This document shows positions 7,848-15,985 of a stretch of DNA of 35,931 nucleotides, piece by piece. Positions within the stretch are counted from its first letter, which is position 1. Each line of letters starts with the position of its first letter. Position numbers and translations under genes: made by a program. Where the stretch lies: the NCBI GenBank assembly GCA_945787445.1, contig CALZHT010000026.1, forward strand, positions 1 through 35,931, written 5' to 3'. This stretch comes from an uncultured Desulfobulbaceae bacterium (GTDB lineage Bacteria; Desulfobacterota; Desulfobulbia; Desulfobulbales; CALZHT01). The notes beneath the pieces were generated by a model. It made no database searches. It saw only the letters and a program-made list of their open reading frames with translations, and was not told where the DNA came from.

Positions 7848-8339
7848 TTATTTATCCGGTTGCGGTTTTGGAACCAGGACCAGATCGAAAACAGCCCCTT
7901 TTGCTCCCATTTTCGGGTAATGCTGGGTAACCAGAGTCTCAAAGCCTGGAGCCGAGATCATCATGTGAATATGGGGTGGTCTTCCGGAATAACCGGGAGG
8001 AAAATTGCTTTCAAAAGCATACCGCCCATTGTTGCCTGAAAAGATTATGGCGCGGTGCGCATCATCATATTGGCCATCCGGCCCGGTTAGCCACAATTCT
8101 ATTTTTGCATTGTTAATGGGATTGCACTCCCTGTTGGACTTCACCATTCCTGTCAGATTATAGCCTTTTCCAACGCGTGCACGGACCGGCGCGTTTGGCC
8201 GGTAAAAAGGTCCGAGGACATCGGGCGGGGTCGGTCGGCAAGCTCCAGGTAATTTTTTTTCTGACTGGGCCGGACAGGCGGTGAGAAGGAACAGCAGGAG
8301 GAGAAAGCCTAAAATAAACGGTATACGTGGTGTCTTCAT
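7848..8339 (-). CDS. Intradiol ring-cleavage dioxygenase-like lipoprotein
   Basis: A 163-residue protein with a lipoprotein signal peptide (lipobox LTAC, Cys22) and a single domain of the intradiol dioxygenase/protocatechuate 3,4-dioxygenase beta fold. All four non-haem Fe(III) ligands appear present: Tyr91 in GQYDD, Tyr117 in PPGYSG, and His123/His125 in RPPHIH. Catalytic family members open catechol rings; envelope-anchored relatives are common and mostly uncharacterised, so the substrate is unknown. The start was taken at the second in-frame ATG, directly before the signal peptide (GTGGGA upstream); the ATG 18 nt upstream has no ribosome binding site. It lies 61 nt behind the spermidine-synthase-like gene and is probably last in that operon. 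Confidence 0.75.
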   Translation of the reverse strand: MKTPRIPFILGFLLLLFLLTACPAQSEKKLPGACRPTPPDVLGPFYRPNAPVRARVGKGYNLTGMVKSNRECNPINNAKIELWLTGPDGQYDDAHRAIIFSGNNGRYAFESNFPPGYSGRPPHIHMMISAPGFETLVTQHYPKMGAKGAVFDLVLVPKPQPDK

Positions 8340-8400
8340 ATTCCCACTGTATAGCAAAATCGAGACAGGAAAAAAGAGATATTTTTTATTTATTTACAAT

Positions 8401-10857
8401 TCAGTCCATGAAAAGAGAAGTCATGGCTGCCACACAATAAAGGGCCAGGGCCAGTAATACCACGGTGGTGAATCCGAATTGGATGGCAAGCATAGTGGCT
8501 AAGACGGCGCTGATCACTGAGGCGCAGCCATTCACTCCCCAGGCCCAGGGCACCAGCCAGGGTCTGGAATCGCCAACCCGTGTTAAAGCAGCCGGAAACG
8601 GCATGCCCATAAAAAAGGCCAGGGGGGCTATGAGCAGAATGGATACAATAATTTTCAGAACATCCGACAGGCCAAAGAGTTGGGCAAAAAGAGTGTTCAA
8701 GCTGAGAAGGTAGACGATCACCAGGATTGTCATGGCGGCAACCGGCAGGGTTATGCCTGACCATTTTCCCCCTTCCTTAATGATTTTTTTGGAAAAAGCG
8801 CTGCCAAAACCGGCAAAAATAAGAAATGAGGCAAGCACCACGGTTACAGCATAAAGCGGATGGCTCAGAAATAGGATGAACCTCTGGATAAAGGCAATTT
8901 CAAGGAAGAGGAAAGCTAGGCCGATGGCGGAAAAATATACAAAGATCTGCCATTTTCCTTGGGCTGTTGTCTCTTTCTCCGGCAGCCTGCGTTTAAGAAA
9001 GAGCAGTGGTAAAAGAATCAGAATGAGGCTGGCTGTCAAAGCCTGGACAAGAGTGGCAACCAGGACCAGATACCCTGATTCCACTAGAGCCATGCCTCCC
9101 TGGCCGCGCAGGGCAATGATCTCCGGCAGGAGTTGCCATTTAAAAAAATGAAAGAAATATGGGGTATTATCCGTTGCCGGCCTGATGTGAAACTTGTACT
9201 GGTCAAAGAAAGCATCACTGTGTCTATCATTTATTATGGTCTGAGCTCCCTCATAAAAAAATGGTTCTCTGAGGACATTGAACTGGTTGGCTTCACTGGT
9301 TGCCATGCCGGGATAATAGGCAACATCAAAGGATCTTTCGGAACAGAAGCGCTTGAGTGCTGCAATTTCCTGATCAGTAATCCGACTTTTTTTAATGAGC
9401 AGGGTGCTTGTCTGCCAGCCCCTGATGAGAACAAGGTGCTGTCCAGGATGAGGAATTCCCTCTTTTTCGAGAGCTTTCACCGCAGTAGCGAGGAGCTTAA
9501 ACGTGTCCCTGGGGGGCAGTTTAAGCCAGCGGCTGATGGAAAGAATACCGTCGGTTTGCAGACGATGAAAATATTTTTGGAACGCTTCAACAGTGTAAAG
9601 ATAGTTCTCACTAAGGGCATAGAGTCCAGCTGATGAGGCGCTGAAAGAGTCAAGCAAGGAAAGCTGGATAAGGTCATACCATGTAGCGGTTTTCTCCACG
9701 AATCCTCTGGCCTCTTTTGTGTAAAGGTTGACCCTTGGTCCCTTAAATAGATCACCGCTAAAGAAACCGTAGTTCTCTACAACCAGGTCGACCAGCTGAT
9801 GATTGAGTTCCACAGCATCAATTTTAGGGACCTGGTGATATTTGGCCAATAGAAGGTCTACTCCGCCTCCTGCGCCGAGAATAAGGATCTGTTCCGGCTT
9901 TTGGAGGTGATAGGGCAGTGCGGTGGTGGTTTGGTCCAGATATCCATATCCTGCTTGATTTTCAAGCTGTTTTGTAATGACTGTCAGTGAGTCGCCGTCA
10001 GTAAAAATACCCAGTTGTTCCGGCGGAATGACCGTTGCGTTAAGGCTCAAGCCCGGTGCGTAACGGAAGGGGACAACCTTGTTTTCTAACACGGTCAGCC
10101 AGCCCAGAGGGCTTGATCGTTCTGTAAGTATCTTGGAGCCTGAAAGGAGCATTTGCTGCGCAAGTCCTTTGTAGGGCGAGATTAAGGGAGTGGTCCAATT
10201 GTTGGGGGCGGCGAGGGGAAGAGTGGCAAGAACAAGAAAAAAGAAGATCCTGTTAAGCGGTTTCATGCCGGTCTCCCACCAGGCAATACCAGCTCCACAA
10301 AGGATGAGACTGGCGAGAAGACTCAAAGCCTTGTCAGGAAAAACCAGAAAGAGCAAAACTATAATGAAAATGCTTCCTAGACCGGCACCAATCAGATCAG
10401 CGGCGTAAATCCGGGATATGCTCTGGGGGAACCGAGCTAATGCCAGGGCAACAGCGGAGGCTGCGAAAAAAAACGGCAGAGCAAGGAGTAGAAAGACCAG
10501 AAGAATCTTGAGAAACGGGGCCGCGGTCCAGAGTATTTCCTCAGGATTGAACTGCAGAGTCTGGGCGGCAAGGAAGCAAAAGGGCACTGCAACACCGAAC
10601 AGCACAATGTTTGCTAGGAAAACAGCTTGAAAATTGGCTAAAAGTTTTTCCCTGGCAATGGAAAGGAAGGTGCCGCTTGCCCCAAAGCCCAGGAGAGCAA
10701 GGCTGATGACCATGTAGGCAAAATGGTGAAACTGGACAATGGAAAAAAGCCGCATCAAGAGGATTTCATAAGCCAGGGCGGTTCCAGAGATAATGGAAAT
10801 TGTCAGGCGGGGTGGCTGCAGAGGCAGGATTTTGTGTGAATCAAAATTCTTGCTCAT
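8401..10857 (-). CDS. Multi-pass membrane spermidine-synthase-like protein
   Basis: An 818-residue protein made of an N-terminal block of about six transmembrane helices (residues 15-215), a soluble spermidine-synthase/methyltransferase-like domain (about 240-560), and a C-terminal block of about six or seven helices (about 595-815). The nucleotide-type loop ILGAGGGVD is near 326-334, followed by the acidic DAVELN near 348-352 that binds the ribose of (decarboxylated) S-adenosylmethionine. Such membrane-embedded SpeE-like proteins are widespread, but few have a proven function, so true polyamine synthesis should not be assumed. The upstream isoaspartyl methyltransferase gene ends 26 nt before this start, indicating cotranscription. 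Confidence 0.8.
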   Translation of the reverse strand: MSKNFDSHKILPLQPPRLTISIISGTALAYEILLMRLFSIVQFHHFAYMVISLALLGFGASGTFLSIAREKLLANFQAVFLANIVLFGVAVPFCFLAAQTLQFNPEEILWTAAPFLKILLVFLLLALPFFFAASAVALALARFPQSISRIYAADLIGAGLGSIFIIVLLFLVFPDKALSLLASLILCGAGIAWWETGMKPLNRIFFFLVLATLPLAAPNNWTTPLISPYKGLAQQMLLSGSKILTERSSPLGWLTVLENKVVPFRYAPGLSLNATVIPPEQLGIFTDGDSLTVITKQLENQAGYGYLDQTTTALPYHLQKPEQILILGAGGGVDLLLAKYHQVPKIDAVELNHQLVDLVVENYGFFSGDLFKGPRVNLYTKEARGFVEKTATWYDLIQLSLLDSFSASSAGLYALSENYLYTVEAFQKYFHRLQTDGILSISRWLKLPPRDTFKLLATAVKALEKEGIPHPGQHLVLIRGWQTSTLLIKKSRITDQEIAALKRFCSERSFDVAYYPGMATSEANQFNVLREPFFYEGAQTIINDRHSDAFFDQYKFHIRPATDNTPYFFHFFKWQLLPEIIALRGQGGMALVESGYLVLVATLVQALTASLILILLPLLFLKRRLPEKETTAQGKWQIFVYFSAIGLAFLFLEIAFIQRFILFLSHPLYAVTVVLASFLIFAGFGSAFSKKIIKEGGKWSGITLPVAAMTILVIVYLLSLNTLFAQLFGLSDVLKIIVSILLIAPLAFFMGMPFPAALTRVGDSRPWLVPWAWGVNGCASVISAVLATMLAIQFGFTTVVLLALALYCVAAMTSLFMD

Positions 10858-10883: not shown

Positions 10884-11639
10884 TTAATGTTTTCCTGTTA
10901 ACGGTACAAATCGAACCGGCAGAAGCTGCCTGGTCTGCACTTTGCCTTCTTCATTTTTCTCTACCAGCAGAAGATGTTGGACAAGAAACCTGGTACCGAC
11001 CGGTATGACCATACGGCCGCCTTTTTTAAGCTGCTGGATCAGGGGCGGCGGAATATGGCTTGCTGCTGCGGTAACAACGATGCCATCAAAAGGCCCTTTT
11101 TCTTGCCAGCCATAATACCCATCCCCGATTCGAACGGTTATATTGTTATAGCCAAGTGTTTTGAGCTTTTCTTTTGCCTTTTCCCCCAATGGTTCAATGA
11201 TCTCAATTGTAAAGACTTTTGCGGCAATTTCTGCTAGGACAGCTGCCTGATAGCCTGAACCGGTGCCGACCTCAAGGACAATGTCATCCTTATCCGCTTT
11301 CAGCAGATCGGTCATCAGGGCGACTATATAAGGCTGCGAAATGGTCTGGCCATAGCCGATGGGAAGAGGCCTATTTTCGTAGGCAACCGACTTGGAAAAA
11401 ACAGGCACGAACTCATGCCTGGGCACTTTTGCCATAACATCAAGGACTTTATGGTCAAGAGACTTCATGTCCGTGAGCAGGCCGATATCCTTGGCCTCCT
11501 TTGCAATGAGGCGGACCATTGCCATGCGGGCAGAGGCATAGTCCTCCACGGCCTTAGAATAACTTGCCCAGCAAATGGAGATAACGGCCAGGAGAAGGCA
11601 GGGCAACCTTTTATATTTACTGAACAGAGTGGAAAGCAT
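10884..11639 (-). CDS. pcm: Protein-L-isoaspartate O-methyltransferase, apparently exported
   Basis: A 251-residue isoaspartyl methyltransferase. PRHEFVP, PLPIGYGQTISQPYIVALMTD and the SAM loop LEVGTGSGYQAAVLAE are family hallmarks. It would methylate damaged L-isoaspartyl residues using SAM. Compared with the usual length of about 210 residues it has an N-terminal extension with basic residues, a hydrophobic core (CLLLAVISICWAS) and a plausible cleavage site near SKA-VED, so it looks like an exported form. How SAM would be available outside the cytoplasm is unclear; the segment could instead be a membrane anchor. The ATG was preferred over an adjacent upstream TTG because AGGTGA sits at proper spacing. 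First gene of a probable operon with the two genes that follow. Confidence 0.85.
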   Translation of the reverse strand: MLSTLFSKYKRLPCLLLAVISICWASYSKAVEDYASARMAMVRLIAKEAKDIGLLTDMKSLDHKVLDVMAKVPRHEFVPVFSKSVAYENRPLPIGYGQTISQPYIVALMTDLLKADKDDIVLEVGTGSGYQAAVLAEIAAKVFTIEIIEPLGEKAKEKLKTLGYNNITVRIGDGYYGWQEKGPFDGIVVTAAASHIPPPLIQQLKKGGRMVIPVGTRFLVQHLLLVEKNEEGKVQTRQLLPVRFVPLTGKH

Positions 11640-11864
11640 CAATCACCTATAAAGGATCCGAGTTCATCGTAACCAAGCTATGAAGATTGCACTCGCTTAA
11701 TGGTGTACGATTATCCCGTGGAGTGAAACCTGAGGAAAAGTATAAATTAATGGTTTCACAAGGATTGCTCAGGGTCAAGCGTTTGTAATGAAGTTTACGA
11801 GACAGACCTAAAAGTGGTTTCGAGATGGGATTGAATATGAGAGCGGTTTGCCGGTGCCTTTCCC

Positions 11865-13733
11865 TTACTGTAAAAGCCTGGAGAGATCAATATCTTGGTC
11901 AAGGTCTTCTTCAATCCTATTTTCTGGAAGATTTTGGTCAGACCTTCTTTCCTTCATGGCCGGCAAATAGATATTGAAAGTAGTGCCTTTGTCAGGAGGA
12001 CTGGTCACAGTGATATAGCCATTGTGCTCCTTAATAATACCGTAAACCATGGCTAGACCCAGGCCGGTGCCTTTGCCTTCCACCTTGGTGGTGAAGAAAG
12101 GGTCAAAAATCCGGGAAAGGTTTTCTTGGGGGATACCGCAGCCAGTGTCCGAAACGGTAATCAGGACATAATCGTCCGGCTTTACTTCTGTAGCAATATC
12201 AAGATTATTTTTGTTTAAGTATACAGTTTCCGTTTTGATCTTTAGCTTGCCCTCTCCCTGCATGGAATCTCTAGCATTGAGAATCATGTTCATCAATACC
12301 TGTTCAATCTGGGTGACATCTCCCTCGATTGCTGGAAGGGGCTCCTGTAATTGGCGGATGAGGCTGATTTCCTTAGGGACCAGTCGTGATAGCATGTCGC
12401 AGGTGCTTTCAATCACATTGTTGCAATTAAGAGGAAGGGCATCTGAAACACCGCGACGGGCAAAACTGAGGAGCTGGGAGACTATTTGCGTTCCTCTGCG
12501 GCCCGCTTGCTCAATCATCTTAATATTTGATGTGGCAAATTCGTTGAGATTATCCATTCGCAGAGTAACTTCTGCCATTGAGATAATGGAAGTGAGGATA
12601 TTTTTGAAATCGTGGGAGATACCGCCGGCAAGTTGACCGATGGAATCCATCTTCTGGGAATGGAGCAGTTGTTTCTGCATTTTTTTCTTATCTGTGATAT
12701 TGCGGTGTAAAGACTGGATATACGTTTTACCATCAATTTCGATGGCCTTGGAGCTTACTTCCACGGAAATCGCGCTTCCGTCTTTTTTGAGGTGCCGTGT
12801 TTCAAAGATAAACGATTCTCCGTTCAGGATCCGTTGATATCTTTGTTTGAACAGCTTATGGTCCTGTTCAGCTTCAATGAGCCTGATGTTTGCACCGATA
12901 AGGGCCTCTTTGGGGAACCCATGGATTTCGCAAGCCTTCCGGTTAATGTTGATAATTGTACCCTTTGAATCAGTTATGATTATACCGTCGTTGGCCTGTT
13001 CAAAAAGGGATCGGAGCATTTGCTCTGATTTGTTGAGTTCCTTTGTCCTTTCTTTAATTAAATGTTCAAGGTTGCCGGAATAAAGTTGCAGCGTCTCTTT
13101 GTCTTTCTGCAGTTCAAACTGAAGGGTAAAGGTCTTAATAAGGGTTTTTTGGACGCTGCCTCTCCAAAGCAGGGCAATGGCAAATGTCGCTATGAGAAAG
13201 AAATTGTTGCTGATAAATACAGGAAGCGCGGTAATTGTATCAAAAATAAAAATGGGAACAATATACATCAGGTGGACCAGGCCCACACAGATAGTTGAAA
13301 AAGTGAGATTCAAGGGGATGAAGGCAAGAGCGCTGATGACAATCAAGCTTAATCCTGCATAATAAAAGGACTTGTGGCCATCGAGATTAAGAATCATAAT
13401 TTCGATAGTCGCGGCTGAAACAAGGATGGCAGCGATAATAATTGGATAGATCCTGAGCACACTTAATGTGTTTTTGCCAAGGGCCCAGTTTAAAACTGAG
13501 AGAATAATGAGAATAGTCGAGCAAGAGACCCTGAGTAGAAAAAAGCGGCTGAAGTTTTCAGGAGTTACAAAAAAGTCAACAATTCCGAAAAGGAGAAAGA
13601 GAAATGCACCAACCAGCAGAACTGCACTAAGCCAATAATATGTTAGGTGGAGCAGCTGGTTGTAGATATATTCATTTTTTGATAAGCCGACTTTGGCTGG
13701 TAATTTTTTAGAATTTCCTAAAAAATCAAACAT
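11865..13733 (-). CDS. Six-helix membrane sensor histidine kinase with PAS domain
   Basis: A 622-residue kinase. Residues 30-190 hold about six transmembrane helices with very short loops, a coiled linker covers 195-240, a PAS domain about 240-350, a HisKA domain with phospho-acceptor His374 in [11 protein letters not shown], and a HATPase domain with the N box [10 protein letters not shown], the G1 box DTGCGI and GTGLGL. The short loops suggest it senses a membrane-soluble ligand or membrane state and not a periplasmic ligand. No receiver domain or response regulator gene is adjacent, so its partner lies elsewhere. It follows the PilZ-methyltransferase gene after 183 nt on the same strand and has a strong candidate promoter of its own. 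Confidence 0.9.
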
Positions 13734-13786
13734 AAATCAATAGGTTGTGCTATATAGTTACAGGTTTCTTTTTGCAAGATCTTCAT

Positions 13787-13816
13787 ATTATAGTGTAAAG
13801 TTCTGTTGCCTGTCCA
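13787..13816 (-). promoter_or_regulatory. Sigma-70-type promoter of the histidine kinase gene
   Basis: On the minus strand a -35 box TGGACA (13816-13811, five of six) is separated by 18 nt from a perfect -10 box TATAAT (13792-13787). The start codon of the kinase is 53 nt further downstream. It indicates the kinase can be expressed independently of the upstream PilZ gene. Confidence 0.5.
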
Positions 13817-13916
13817 GCCATGTCTTACAAAGATTATGACTAGGCTTTCAGGCAAGGTTGGAGATTTTAGCCCTGCTGCCGGTCAGGACCAGTTTTTAGG
13901 CACCGCGAATTCACAA

Positions 13917-15392
13917 TCAATCTTTTGTTACAATATAGAAGACAATGACACCTGAACGATCAGTTTTTACTTGAACTGCTCTGGAAGGAATGGAGGTTTT
14001 TTTGAAAAGAGCAGCGCTGTCATTTTTTGTCCGGTGGATGATGGGCCAGTCTACGATCCAGTTGAATTCCTCAATATTATATTTTTCGCTGTTTGGAAAA
14101 GCACATATAAATTTGCCCTGTGGATTCAAAAGATCGTAAAGTGAGTTCATTAATCGAACCAGGGTCTCGTCTCTTACATAATCGAAAAGGCCAAGAGTGT
14201 AGATGATGTCCTGTGGGCCGAATTCTCTCATATTTTTTTCATGGCTTAGCATACGTATGGCGTTATATTTGCGAAGAATAAGGTTGGATTTTAGGCCGGT
14301 ATGCGTAAAACGATCCGCGGCAAAATCAAGGGCCTCGGAATCAAGATCAATGCCTGTGATCATGGCTTGAGAAGATTCTAATTCTGATGCTATTTCAAAT
14401 AGATCCCGACAGGAACCGCAGGCAACACTGAGAATGTTGAGGGTTTTCCGGTTGGTAATTTCCTTAAGGAGAATTTTTTTTAGAAGTTCTTTCCGGCCCC
14501 TTACCCCATACGCTAAGGCATTATTCAGGAAGTTTTCGTCTAGCAGATAGCCGAGTCCGATAGATTTTGGTACGTTCCTGTAAATGTCTTCAATGATTTT
14601 AAAGTCGCCGGGATATCCTTGCGGCCAGGTTCGCGCCCATCTCACCAAATAGCTTTTGGTCATGAAACGGTTTGTTTTCTCGATAAACTCCTGGCGCATC
14701 TTGTGCAGTAGATCACAGTCGTTGACAAGCAGGGTTTCTATTGTCCGGCAGTAAGAGCAAATTTCCCTTACTGCGTAAAGCGTTTCTTTTAAAAGACTAT
14801 TTTTATTTATTCGCCCGGCAAGGTATTTTTTTTCGATGGTTTCCAGGGTATGATTGAAATATTCTGTTGCCCAGTTAATAGAATCAAAACAGTGGGTATG
14901 CACTTCCTTGCTGTAAATTGTAAAGGCCTGATCTTCAGTGAAGTCAAGGCTTCTGAAACATTTTTCGCATCTTTTGCTTTTCCGAGTTTTGATCATGCCA
15001 CAGAAAGGGCAATGGAGTGAATCCTTGAGATTATTGCTGATAATTTTCCAAAGATATTTACGGCTTGAATCGTTAATCGTCTCGAACTGGAGAGCAAATC
15101 CTTTTTTGTTTTTCCAGACCACTTTGCCATGAAAGCAGAAATTTGTTTCATTATAGAAAGTTGTGTTGAGTTTGAGGGTGGACCTCACCGGCACTGTAAT
15201 GTTTGTTTTAATAAAAGCTCCACCAAGGCTGATATTAGCAGTTCTTGCCCGGATGTTTTTGCTTTGCTCTCCCGCATTAAGCTGAAATTCGACTGGTAAT
15301 TCCACTTTACATCTCGCATCAATCCTTGCACCTTGGTGCGTCTTTCTTTTTGTGGTAGATTTTTTTAATTCAGTTGTAAGGGACAAATTCAT
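13917..15392 (-). CDS. PilZ - zinc ribbon - SAM methyltransferase fusion protein
   Basis: A 491-residue fusion. Residues 20-120 are a PilZ domain with the c-di-GMP signatures R23xxxR27 and N53-x-S55-x-x-G. Residues 128-145 form a CxxC-x10-CxxC zinc ribbon. A helical region follows, then a class I methyltransferase (about 250-490) with the SAM loop LSVACGSCRD (321-330), GIDLD (347-351) and the segments GYPGDF, LGLFDYV and DWPIIHR. From memory these segments match the family annotated as 'extracellular factor 3-hydroxypalmitic acid methyl ester' synthases. c-di-GMP binding and a lipid-like substrate are inferred. The start is the second ATG, behind GAGGT at 8 nt. The histidine kinase gene lies downstream. 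Confidence 0.8.
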   Translation of the reverse strand: MNLSLTTELKKSTTKRKTHQGARIDARCKVELPVEFQLNAGEQSKNIRARTANISLGGAFIKTNITVPVRSTLKLNTTFYNETNFCFHGKVVWKNKKGFALQFETINDSSRKYLWKIISNNLKDSLHCPFCGMIKTRKSKRCEKCFRSLDFTEDQAFTIYSKEVHTHCFDSINWATEYFNHTLETIEKKYLAGRINKNSLLKETLYAVREICSYCRTIETLLVNDCDLLHKMRQEFIEKTNRFMTKSYLVRWARTWPQGYPGDFKIIEDIYRNVPKSIGLGYLLDENFLNNALAYGVRGRKELLKKILLKEITNRKTLNILSVACGSCRDLFEIASELESSQAMITGIDLDSEALDFAADRFTHTGLKSNLILRKYNAIRMLSHEKNMREFGPQDIIYTLGLFDYVRDETLVRLMNSLYDLLNPQGKFICAFPNSEKYNIEEFNWIVDWPIIHRTKNDSAALFKKTSIPSRAVQVKTDRSGVIVFYIVTKD

Positions 15393-15985
15393 AAGAAAGT
15401 ACCTCAAAATTGCAGACATTTATCTGAAGTGCGGAGATTTCCCGCAGCTTGTTGCAGCGCAGCATTAATCCCGTTTCTAACGGGACCCTGCAGAAATTCA
15501 ATTTCCTGCGTTATTTTGAGCCGGAAATGGTTGTTGAATGAACAGGAAACATGCAAAAAAAGTTGACCATTGACCATAGCAATTGGAGTGCCAAAGAATA
15601 TTAATAGTTATGTGGCAAGGAAAAAATGATGACATCCCATCCTAATCTGTTGCCGGAATGTATATAAAACTATACATAAAAAATGTTAGGAAAATTCTTT
15701 ATTTCATTGATTGGTTGAGATAAATTGGTAGTCATGCTCTGATGCATTCTGCACGACAAGTTGACTGGATAAAAATGAAGTATTAAAAAGTTTGTTCAAT
15801 ACTATTTGTCCTGCAAATTAACAAGGCCTTGAAATCGACAGCTTTGATCTGTATCACATGCCAAGGAGAGTCAAAGAATAGATAACGGCGTCGGAATATT
15901 GACAGCACAACTGCCGCTTTATATAGGATCTGGAATATTTTTTGGTAATGACAGTTGGCACCCAATGTTTGTAAGGGAATGGGAT
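15393..15985. other. 593-nt divergent intergenic region
   Basis: This region separates the divergent PilZ fusion and DUF2452 genes. It is AT-rich and contains a perfect hairpin at 15469-15485 near the PilZ gene. On the plus strand TTGACT (15761-15766), 17 nt, TAAAAA (15784-15789) is a weak promoter candidate. The DUF2452 frame stays open upstream to a TTG at 15899, but the codons before 15986 have no family similarity that I recognise. No other gene is seen. Confidence 0.5.
15469..15485. repeat. Perfect 7-bp hairpin upstream of the PilZ fusion gene
   Basis: TCCCGTT (15469-15475), loop TCT, AACGGGA (15479-15485). It is 77 nt upstream of the chosen start codon, inside the probable leader or promoter of the PilZ fusion gene, so it may be a 5' leader structure or an operator. 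Confidence 0.7.

Follow-up and report, generated by a model that had tools for sequence, protein, structure and literature searches.

A PilZ-methyltransferase gene and a membrane-sensor kinase gene related to the PhcB/PhcS quorum-sensing pair in an uncultured Desulfobulbaceae bacterium

Two neighboring genes in a stretch of DNA from an uncultured Desulfobulbaceae bacterium (35,931 nucleotides in full, here called the window) raise the question of whether a relative of the Ralstonia quorum-sensing pair PhcB and PhcS operates in a distant phylum. An initial annotation, made from the sequence alone, had proposed that a gene fusing a PilZ domain to a methyltransferase (MT) and the sensor kinase gene that follows it could encode a c-di-GMP-controlled synthase of a lipid-type signal and the receptor of that signal. 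In Ralstonia, a plant pathogen, PhcB synthesizes 3-hydroxy fatty acid methyl esters, and the kinase PhcS senses them. Here, we ask how this pair is related to PhcB and PhcS, how consistently its two members travel together, and how they might work.

The features of the two genes are collected in Table 1. The longest open reading frame (ORF) of the PilZ-MT gene spans 13917-15419 on the minus strand and encodes 500 amino acids from an upstream ATG at 15419, but position 15392, the end given in the initial annotation, is likely the better start because its in-frame ATG is preceded by GAGG. Both motifs that define a PilZ c-di-GMP receptor, RxxxR and D/NxSxxG, are intact in the protein: a motif scan found RIDAR at residues 32 to 36, running from just upstream of the PilZ Pfam span to inside it, and NISLGG at residues 62 to 67. 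The cysteine pairs of the zinc ribbon begin at residues 137 (CPFC) and 151 (CEKC), within a zinc-ribbon-like Pfam match (residues 136 to 164) that falls below its cut-off. The family motif PQGYPGD lies at residue 266, and Pfam MT domains match the protein at E values down to 6e-10 (residues 325 to 449). Pfam and the motifs thus bore out the initial reading of the gene as a PilZ domain with intact c-di-GMP residues, a zinc ribbon and an S-adenosylmethionine (SAM)-type MT. No solved structure matching the protein by sequence was found, and an AlphaFold model of the MT was poor (mean pLDDT 54) and was set aside.

Table 1. Positions of the two genes and their domains in the window.
Feature	Coordinates	Strand	Basis
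PilZ-zinc ribbon-MT gene	13917..15392	-	491 aa from likely start
PilZ domain	15042..15317	-	Pfam PF07238, E 4.7e-11, residues 35-126
Zinc ribbon CPFC-x10-CEKC	14928..15014	-	Pfam match below cut-off and motif positions
PhcB-family SAM MT domain (assigned by profile)	13920..14672	-	PhcB-MT profile, E 6.1e-18; PxGYxGD and GLFDYV motifs
Sensor histidine kinase gene	11865..13733	-	622-aa ORF
Six-helix membrane sensor, homologous to PhcS sensor (by profile)	13059..13733	-	PhcS sensor profile, E 2.8e-9
PAS domain	12690..13019	-	Pfam, residues 239-348
HisKA + HATPase_c transmitter	11958..12638	-	Pfam, HisKA 366-427, HATPase 471-592

The kinase gene is the next gene on the same strand, 183 bp away. 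Hydropathy indicated about six hydrophobic helices between residues 38 and 190, which, with the PAS domain, agrees with the kinase as first described, and the transmitter is intact, its phospho-acceptor box (H-box) SHDFKN starting at residue 373. When we compared the kinase with the curated MASE8 model, its match and that of a PhcS-like kinase both fell below the cut-off; on this basis, we place the sensor domain near the MASE8 family, of which it is not a recognized member. Because a strong promoter-like match precedes the kinase gene (13816-13787), a single transcript for the pair is not assured, although comparable matches are found in this region about as often as expected by chance. Among the window ORFs, we saw no response regulator adjoining the pair. 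As had been claimed for phcR, neither phcR nor phcQ was found beside it, the neighbors being a PCMT gene, a spermine-synthase-like gene and unrelated genes. The pair is therefore not a Phc operon proper, which includes PhcR and PhcQ. The product of the downstream gene at 10884-11642 is a protein-L-isoaspartate methyltransferase whose N terminus looks like a signal sequence, and a DVU0772-family gene near the pair is a hint of Desulfobacterota.

The reference sequences and profiles for PhcB and PhcS came from the Burkholderiales, with no Ralstonia solanacearum sequence among them; for the genome scan, a single PhcB homologue served as the query, since a seven-sequence alignment was too diverse. 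We took these loci to be Phc because they agree with the literature in protein length (PhcB, 464 to 468 amino acids; PhcR, 368 to 374; PhcQ, 336 to 337; PMC8578825), in retaining R22 in 79 of 79 PhcB sequences (R22 in Ralstonia; PMC6989110), and in the PhcS phospho-histidine at position 231 (H230 in Ralstonia; PMC11960443). The PhcS gene follows that of PhcB in 78 of the 79 loci. Cupriavidus necator JMP134, for its part, is reported to have a complete Phc system that is 56 to 75% identical to that of Ralstonia (PMC2842291).

The Burkholderiales PhcB profile matched the window MT with an E value of 6.1e-18, in keeping with the resemblance to the "extracellular factor"/PhcB family suggested at the outset. 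Among 1,219 ORFs, the matches to this profile at E<1 were solely MT genes of the family; the window's PCMT and spermine-synthase-like genes were not matched at that level. The PhcS sensor profile matched the window kinase at E 2.8e-9, and everything else that it matched in the same ORF set also carries this sensor. Nearly all of these proteins have an MT gene as neighbor; those that do not (e.g., L223 and L224, as well as second copies lying some kilobases off) came from genomes that also carry an MT. By alignment, the window kinase and PhcS sensors have in common D53, F64, R68, M113, G119, Y125, G127 and Y157 (window numbering), of which R68, G127 and Y157 are invariant. On these profile matches and alignments, we assign the window MT to the PhcB family and regard the membrane sensor of the kinase as homologous to that of PhcS, a relation that had not been claimed at the outset, so that the pair appears to be related to the Ralstonia quorum-sensing pair within a distant, widespread and modular family. 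Like phcB, the window MT gene lies directly upstream of a gene for a PhcS-type sensor, and its product shares the PhcB motifs. The differences are also clear: PhcB and the window MT domain are only ~24% identical, so the substrate may differ from that of PhcB; the window protein begins with an intact PilZ domain and a zinc ribbon; and the window kinase, which shares with PhcS a histidine kinase output, carries an HDFKN-type H-box and, separating its sensor from its transmitter, a PAS domain.

To ask how regularly the two genes occur together, we surveyed 258 genomes of the same order and scored a pair when a sensor match lay within 1.5 kb of an MT match. A sensor gene was within this distance of 59 of 72 MT matches, and in all 59 cases it was downstream on the same strand. 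For the remaining 13, the sensor was 1.5 to 1.9 kb off in three and absent from the contig in ten, several of which were near contig ends or were other types of MT (polyketide synthase ends). Sensors were present in 58 of 61 MT-carrying genomes of the order (Fisher test, 7e-46, ignoring shared descent) and, in a survey of 395 genomes of the phylum, in 33 of 37 such genomes from 14 families (1e-28, ignoring phylogeny). The two checks put forward with the initial annotation, a profile search with the MT and a look at gene neighborhoods, thus both came out in its favor: the MT falls in the PhcB family, and the two genes are neighbors in relatives across many families. In the family designated f46, the MT and sensor genes are unlinked, yet a sensor is encoded elsewhere in 7 of 8 genomes, and this retention of an unlinked sensor is evidence of a functional linkage that is not due to operon inheritance. 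The window genome itself holds exactly two MTs and two sensors, and both pairs are adjacent.

What varies is the company that each domain keeps. By Pfam, the MT is joined to PilZ (window, G488, f48 and f46), to a cyclic-nucleotide-binding (cNMP) domain in most cases, to HATPase_c_2 (L191) or to nothing, and the sensor to a histidine kinase (window, L041 and L168-L177), GGDEF (L189), SpoIIE (L191) or HD-GYP domain (L042, L043 and L048 by Pfam, further ones by similarity). In relatives of the order, the MT is mostly fused to a cNMP-binding domain and not to PilZ. The PilZ domain first noted in the window is present, as described, but it is not the sole regulatory domain to which this MT is joined; there are several. 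The window genome contains two versions, PilZ-MT with the kinase and cNMP-MT with an HD-GYP protein (L048); in the latter type, which also occurs in other genomes of the order, the MT and sensor families and the gene order are the same, with a cNMP-binding domain replacing PilZ and an HD-GYP c-di-GMP phosphodiesterase replacing the kinase. In our tree, which requires about one origin per N-terminal fusion, the window, G002 and G488 proteins formed a clade (support 100/99), and its sister was f48, another PilZ-MT group (98/90, with long branches meeting at this node). G488, from another family, encodes an orthologous PilZ-ribbon-MT protein (38% identity over its length) and an adjacent sensor (38%).

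Several further arrangements were seen in the surveys. At L191 (4111-6862), an MT with an RsbW-like HATPase precedes a sensor with a SpoIIE phosphatase. This is the pair in a partner-switching form, and it suggests a joint exchange of input and output modules. Tandem MT, sensor-HD-GYP, MT, sensor-HD-GYP arrays occur at L206, L207, L208, L212 and L217 and suggest that a pair of signal channels runs in parallel there. The PilZ and zinc ribbon N terminus is also fused to sigma-54 activators in other families of the phylum (L194, L195, L196, L197, L200 and L201; confirmed by Pfam for L194), which marks it as a mobile input module for c-di-GMP. Among relatives of the MT, the rhizobial and Roseateles plasmid ones (L014 and L015) are divergent from an adjacent EAL or GGDEF-EAL gene, with a GGDEF gene also downstream in Roseateles; these neighbors again link the MT family to c-di-GMP. 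Finally, an IncFII conjugative plasmid of Enterobacter ludwigii (L012, 5631-8768) encodes a polyketide synthase that ends in an acyl carrier protein (ACP) domain followed by a PhcB-family MT.

Taken together, we consider it probable, on balance, that the pair is a PhcBS-type module comprising a c-di-GMP-gated acyl methyl ester synthase and its receptor. By the PhcB precedent, the MT domain would make a methyl ester from an acyl substrate, probably of the 3-hydroxy fatty acid type; an acyl substrate fits because the Enterobacter relative ends a polyketide synthase directly after ACP. The ester would act as a diffusible signal, which the six-helix domain of the neighboring kinase would sense, setting autophosphorylation. 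The N-terminal PilZ domain would bind c-di-GMP and switch the synthase, making signal output dependent on c-di-GMP; we infer both this binding and the direction of control. The kinase could also answer to another input, since its PAS domain has no counterpart in PhcS. In the open-access literature, we found no measured product for family members outside the Ralstonia group.

One rival reading concerns gating: the PilZ domain could be a scaffold or have lost ligand binding, leaving a plain PhcBS-like system without second-messenger control. The nearest relative, G002, has an MT without PilZ, and the partly decayed PilZ domain of G488 reads DLGLYG where D/NxSxxG is expected; even within this clade, then, the pair need not be under c-di-GMP control. 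PhcB may tell a similar story. Its first ~90 to 95 residues (in the PhcB of L086, gene at 8001-9386) lie outside any named domain, contain six predicted strands (pLDDT ~60) and include R22, the residue altered in the adaptive R22C change (PMC6989110). Among the profiles tried against this region, that of the Pfam-recognized f46 PilZ domain was the best, if weak (E 0.0016, probability 16%), and a fold search of the PhcB model returned solely generic class I O-methyltransferases, nothing informative on the N terminus. We hypothesize that this region may be a degenerate PilZ domain whose c-di-GMP-binding site has been lost. Against a nonbinding PilZ in the window stand its intact motifs, also kept by the f48 and f46 MTs, and the cNMP and HATPase regulatory domains that occupy the same place on the MT, as expected of an input domain. 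We regard an ungated system as somewhat unlikely.

Less likely still is that the product is an internal modification of membrane lipids, sensed in the same cell rather than released. The sensor is almost entirely intramembrane with short loops, methyl esters partition into membranes, and no exporter gene was seen beside the pair; however, the only characterized relatives, PhcB and PhcS, use an extracellular volatile ester (PMC2842291, PMC11960443). That the MT instead modifies a protein, such as the sensor or a partner, in a CheR-like adaptation with the pair as enzyme and substrate would also fit the tight gene pairing and the weak CheR profile matches (E 0.0024), but it is very unlikely given that the CheR match is below its cut-off and the reading weak, long soluble loops are missing from the sensor, the ACP-linked relative points to acyl substrates, and PhcB sets the precedent.

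A PhcBS-type module of this kind would work much like the DSF system RpfF/RpfC/RpfG, in which a fatty-acid signal, a membrane kinase sensor and c-di-GMP are coupled; the DSF synthase is unrelated (crotonase family), and the window pair is not a DSF member. In the literature that we found, accounts of methyl-ester quorum sensing are limited to Ralstonia and its close relatives, and open-access sources yielded no description of a signal synthase of the PilZ-MT or cNMP-MT kind, an absence that counts as weak evidence. We tentatively entertain the possibility that PhcBS is the one visible part of a much larger and modular class of ester signaling, in which the synthase senses c-di-GMP, a cyclic nucleotide or a HATPase partner switch, the receptor (HD-GYP, GGDEF, SpoIIE or kinase) feeds back in a closed loop, and PhcB descends from a PilZ-gated ancestor. 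The second-messenger domains on the synthase and the c-di-GMP enzymes on the receptor are the features behind this view. If it is correct, an enzyme-sensor pair found in 14 or more families of a phylum other than that of Ralstonia would represent a broad signaling class, from which a type of receptor input new to c-di-GMP networks would be predicted.
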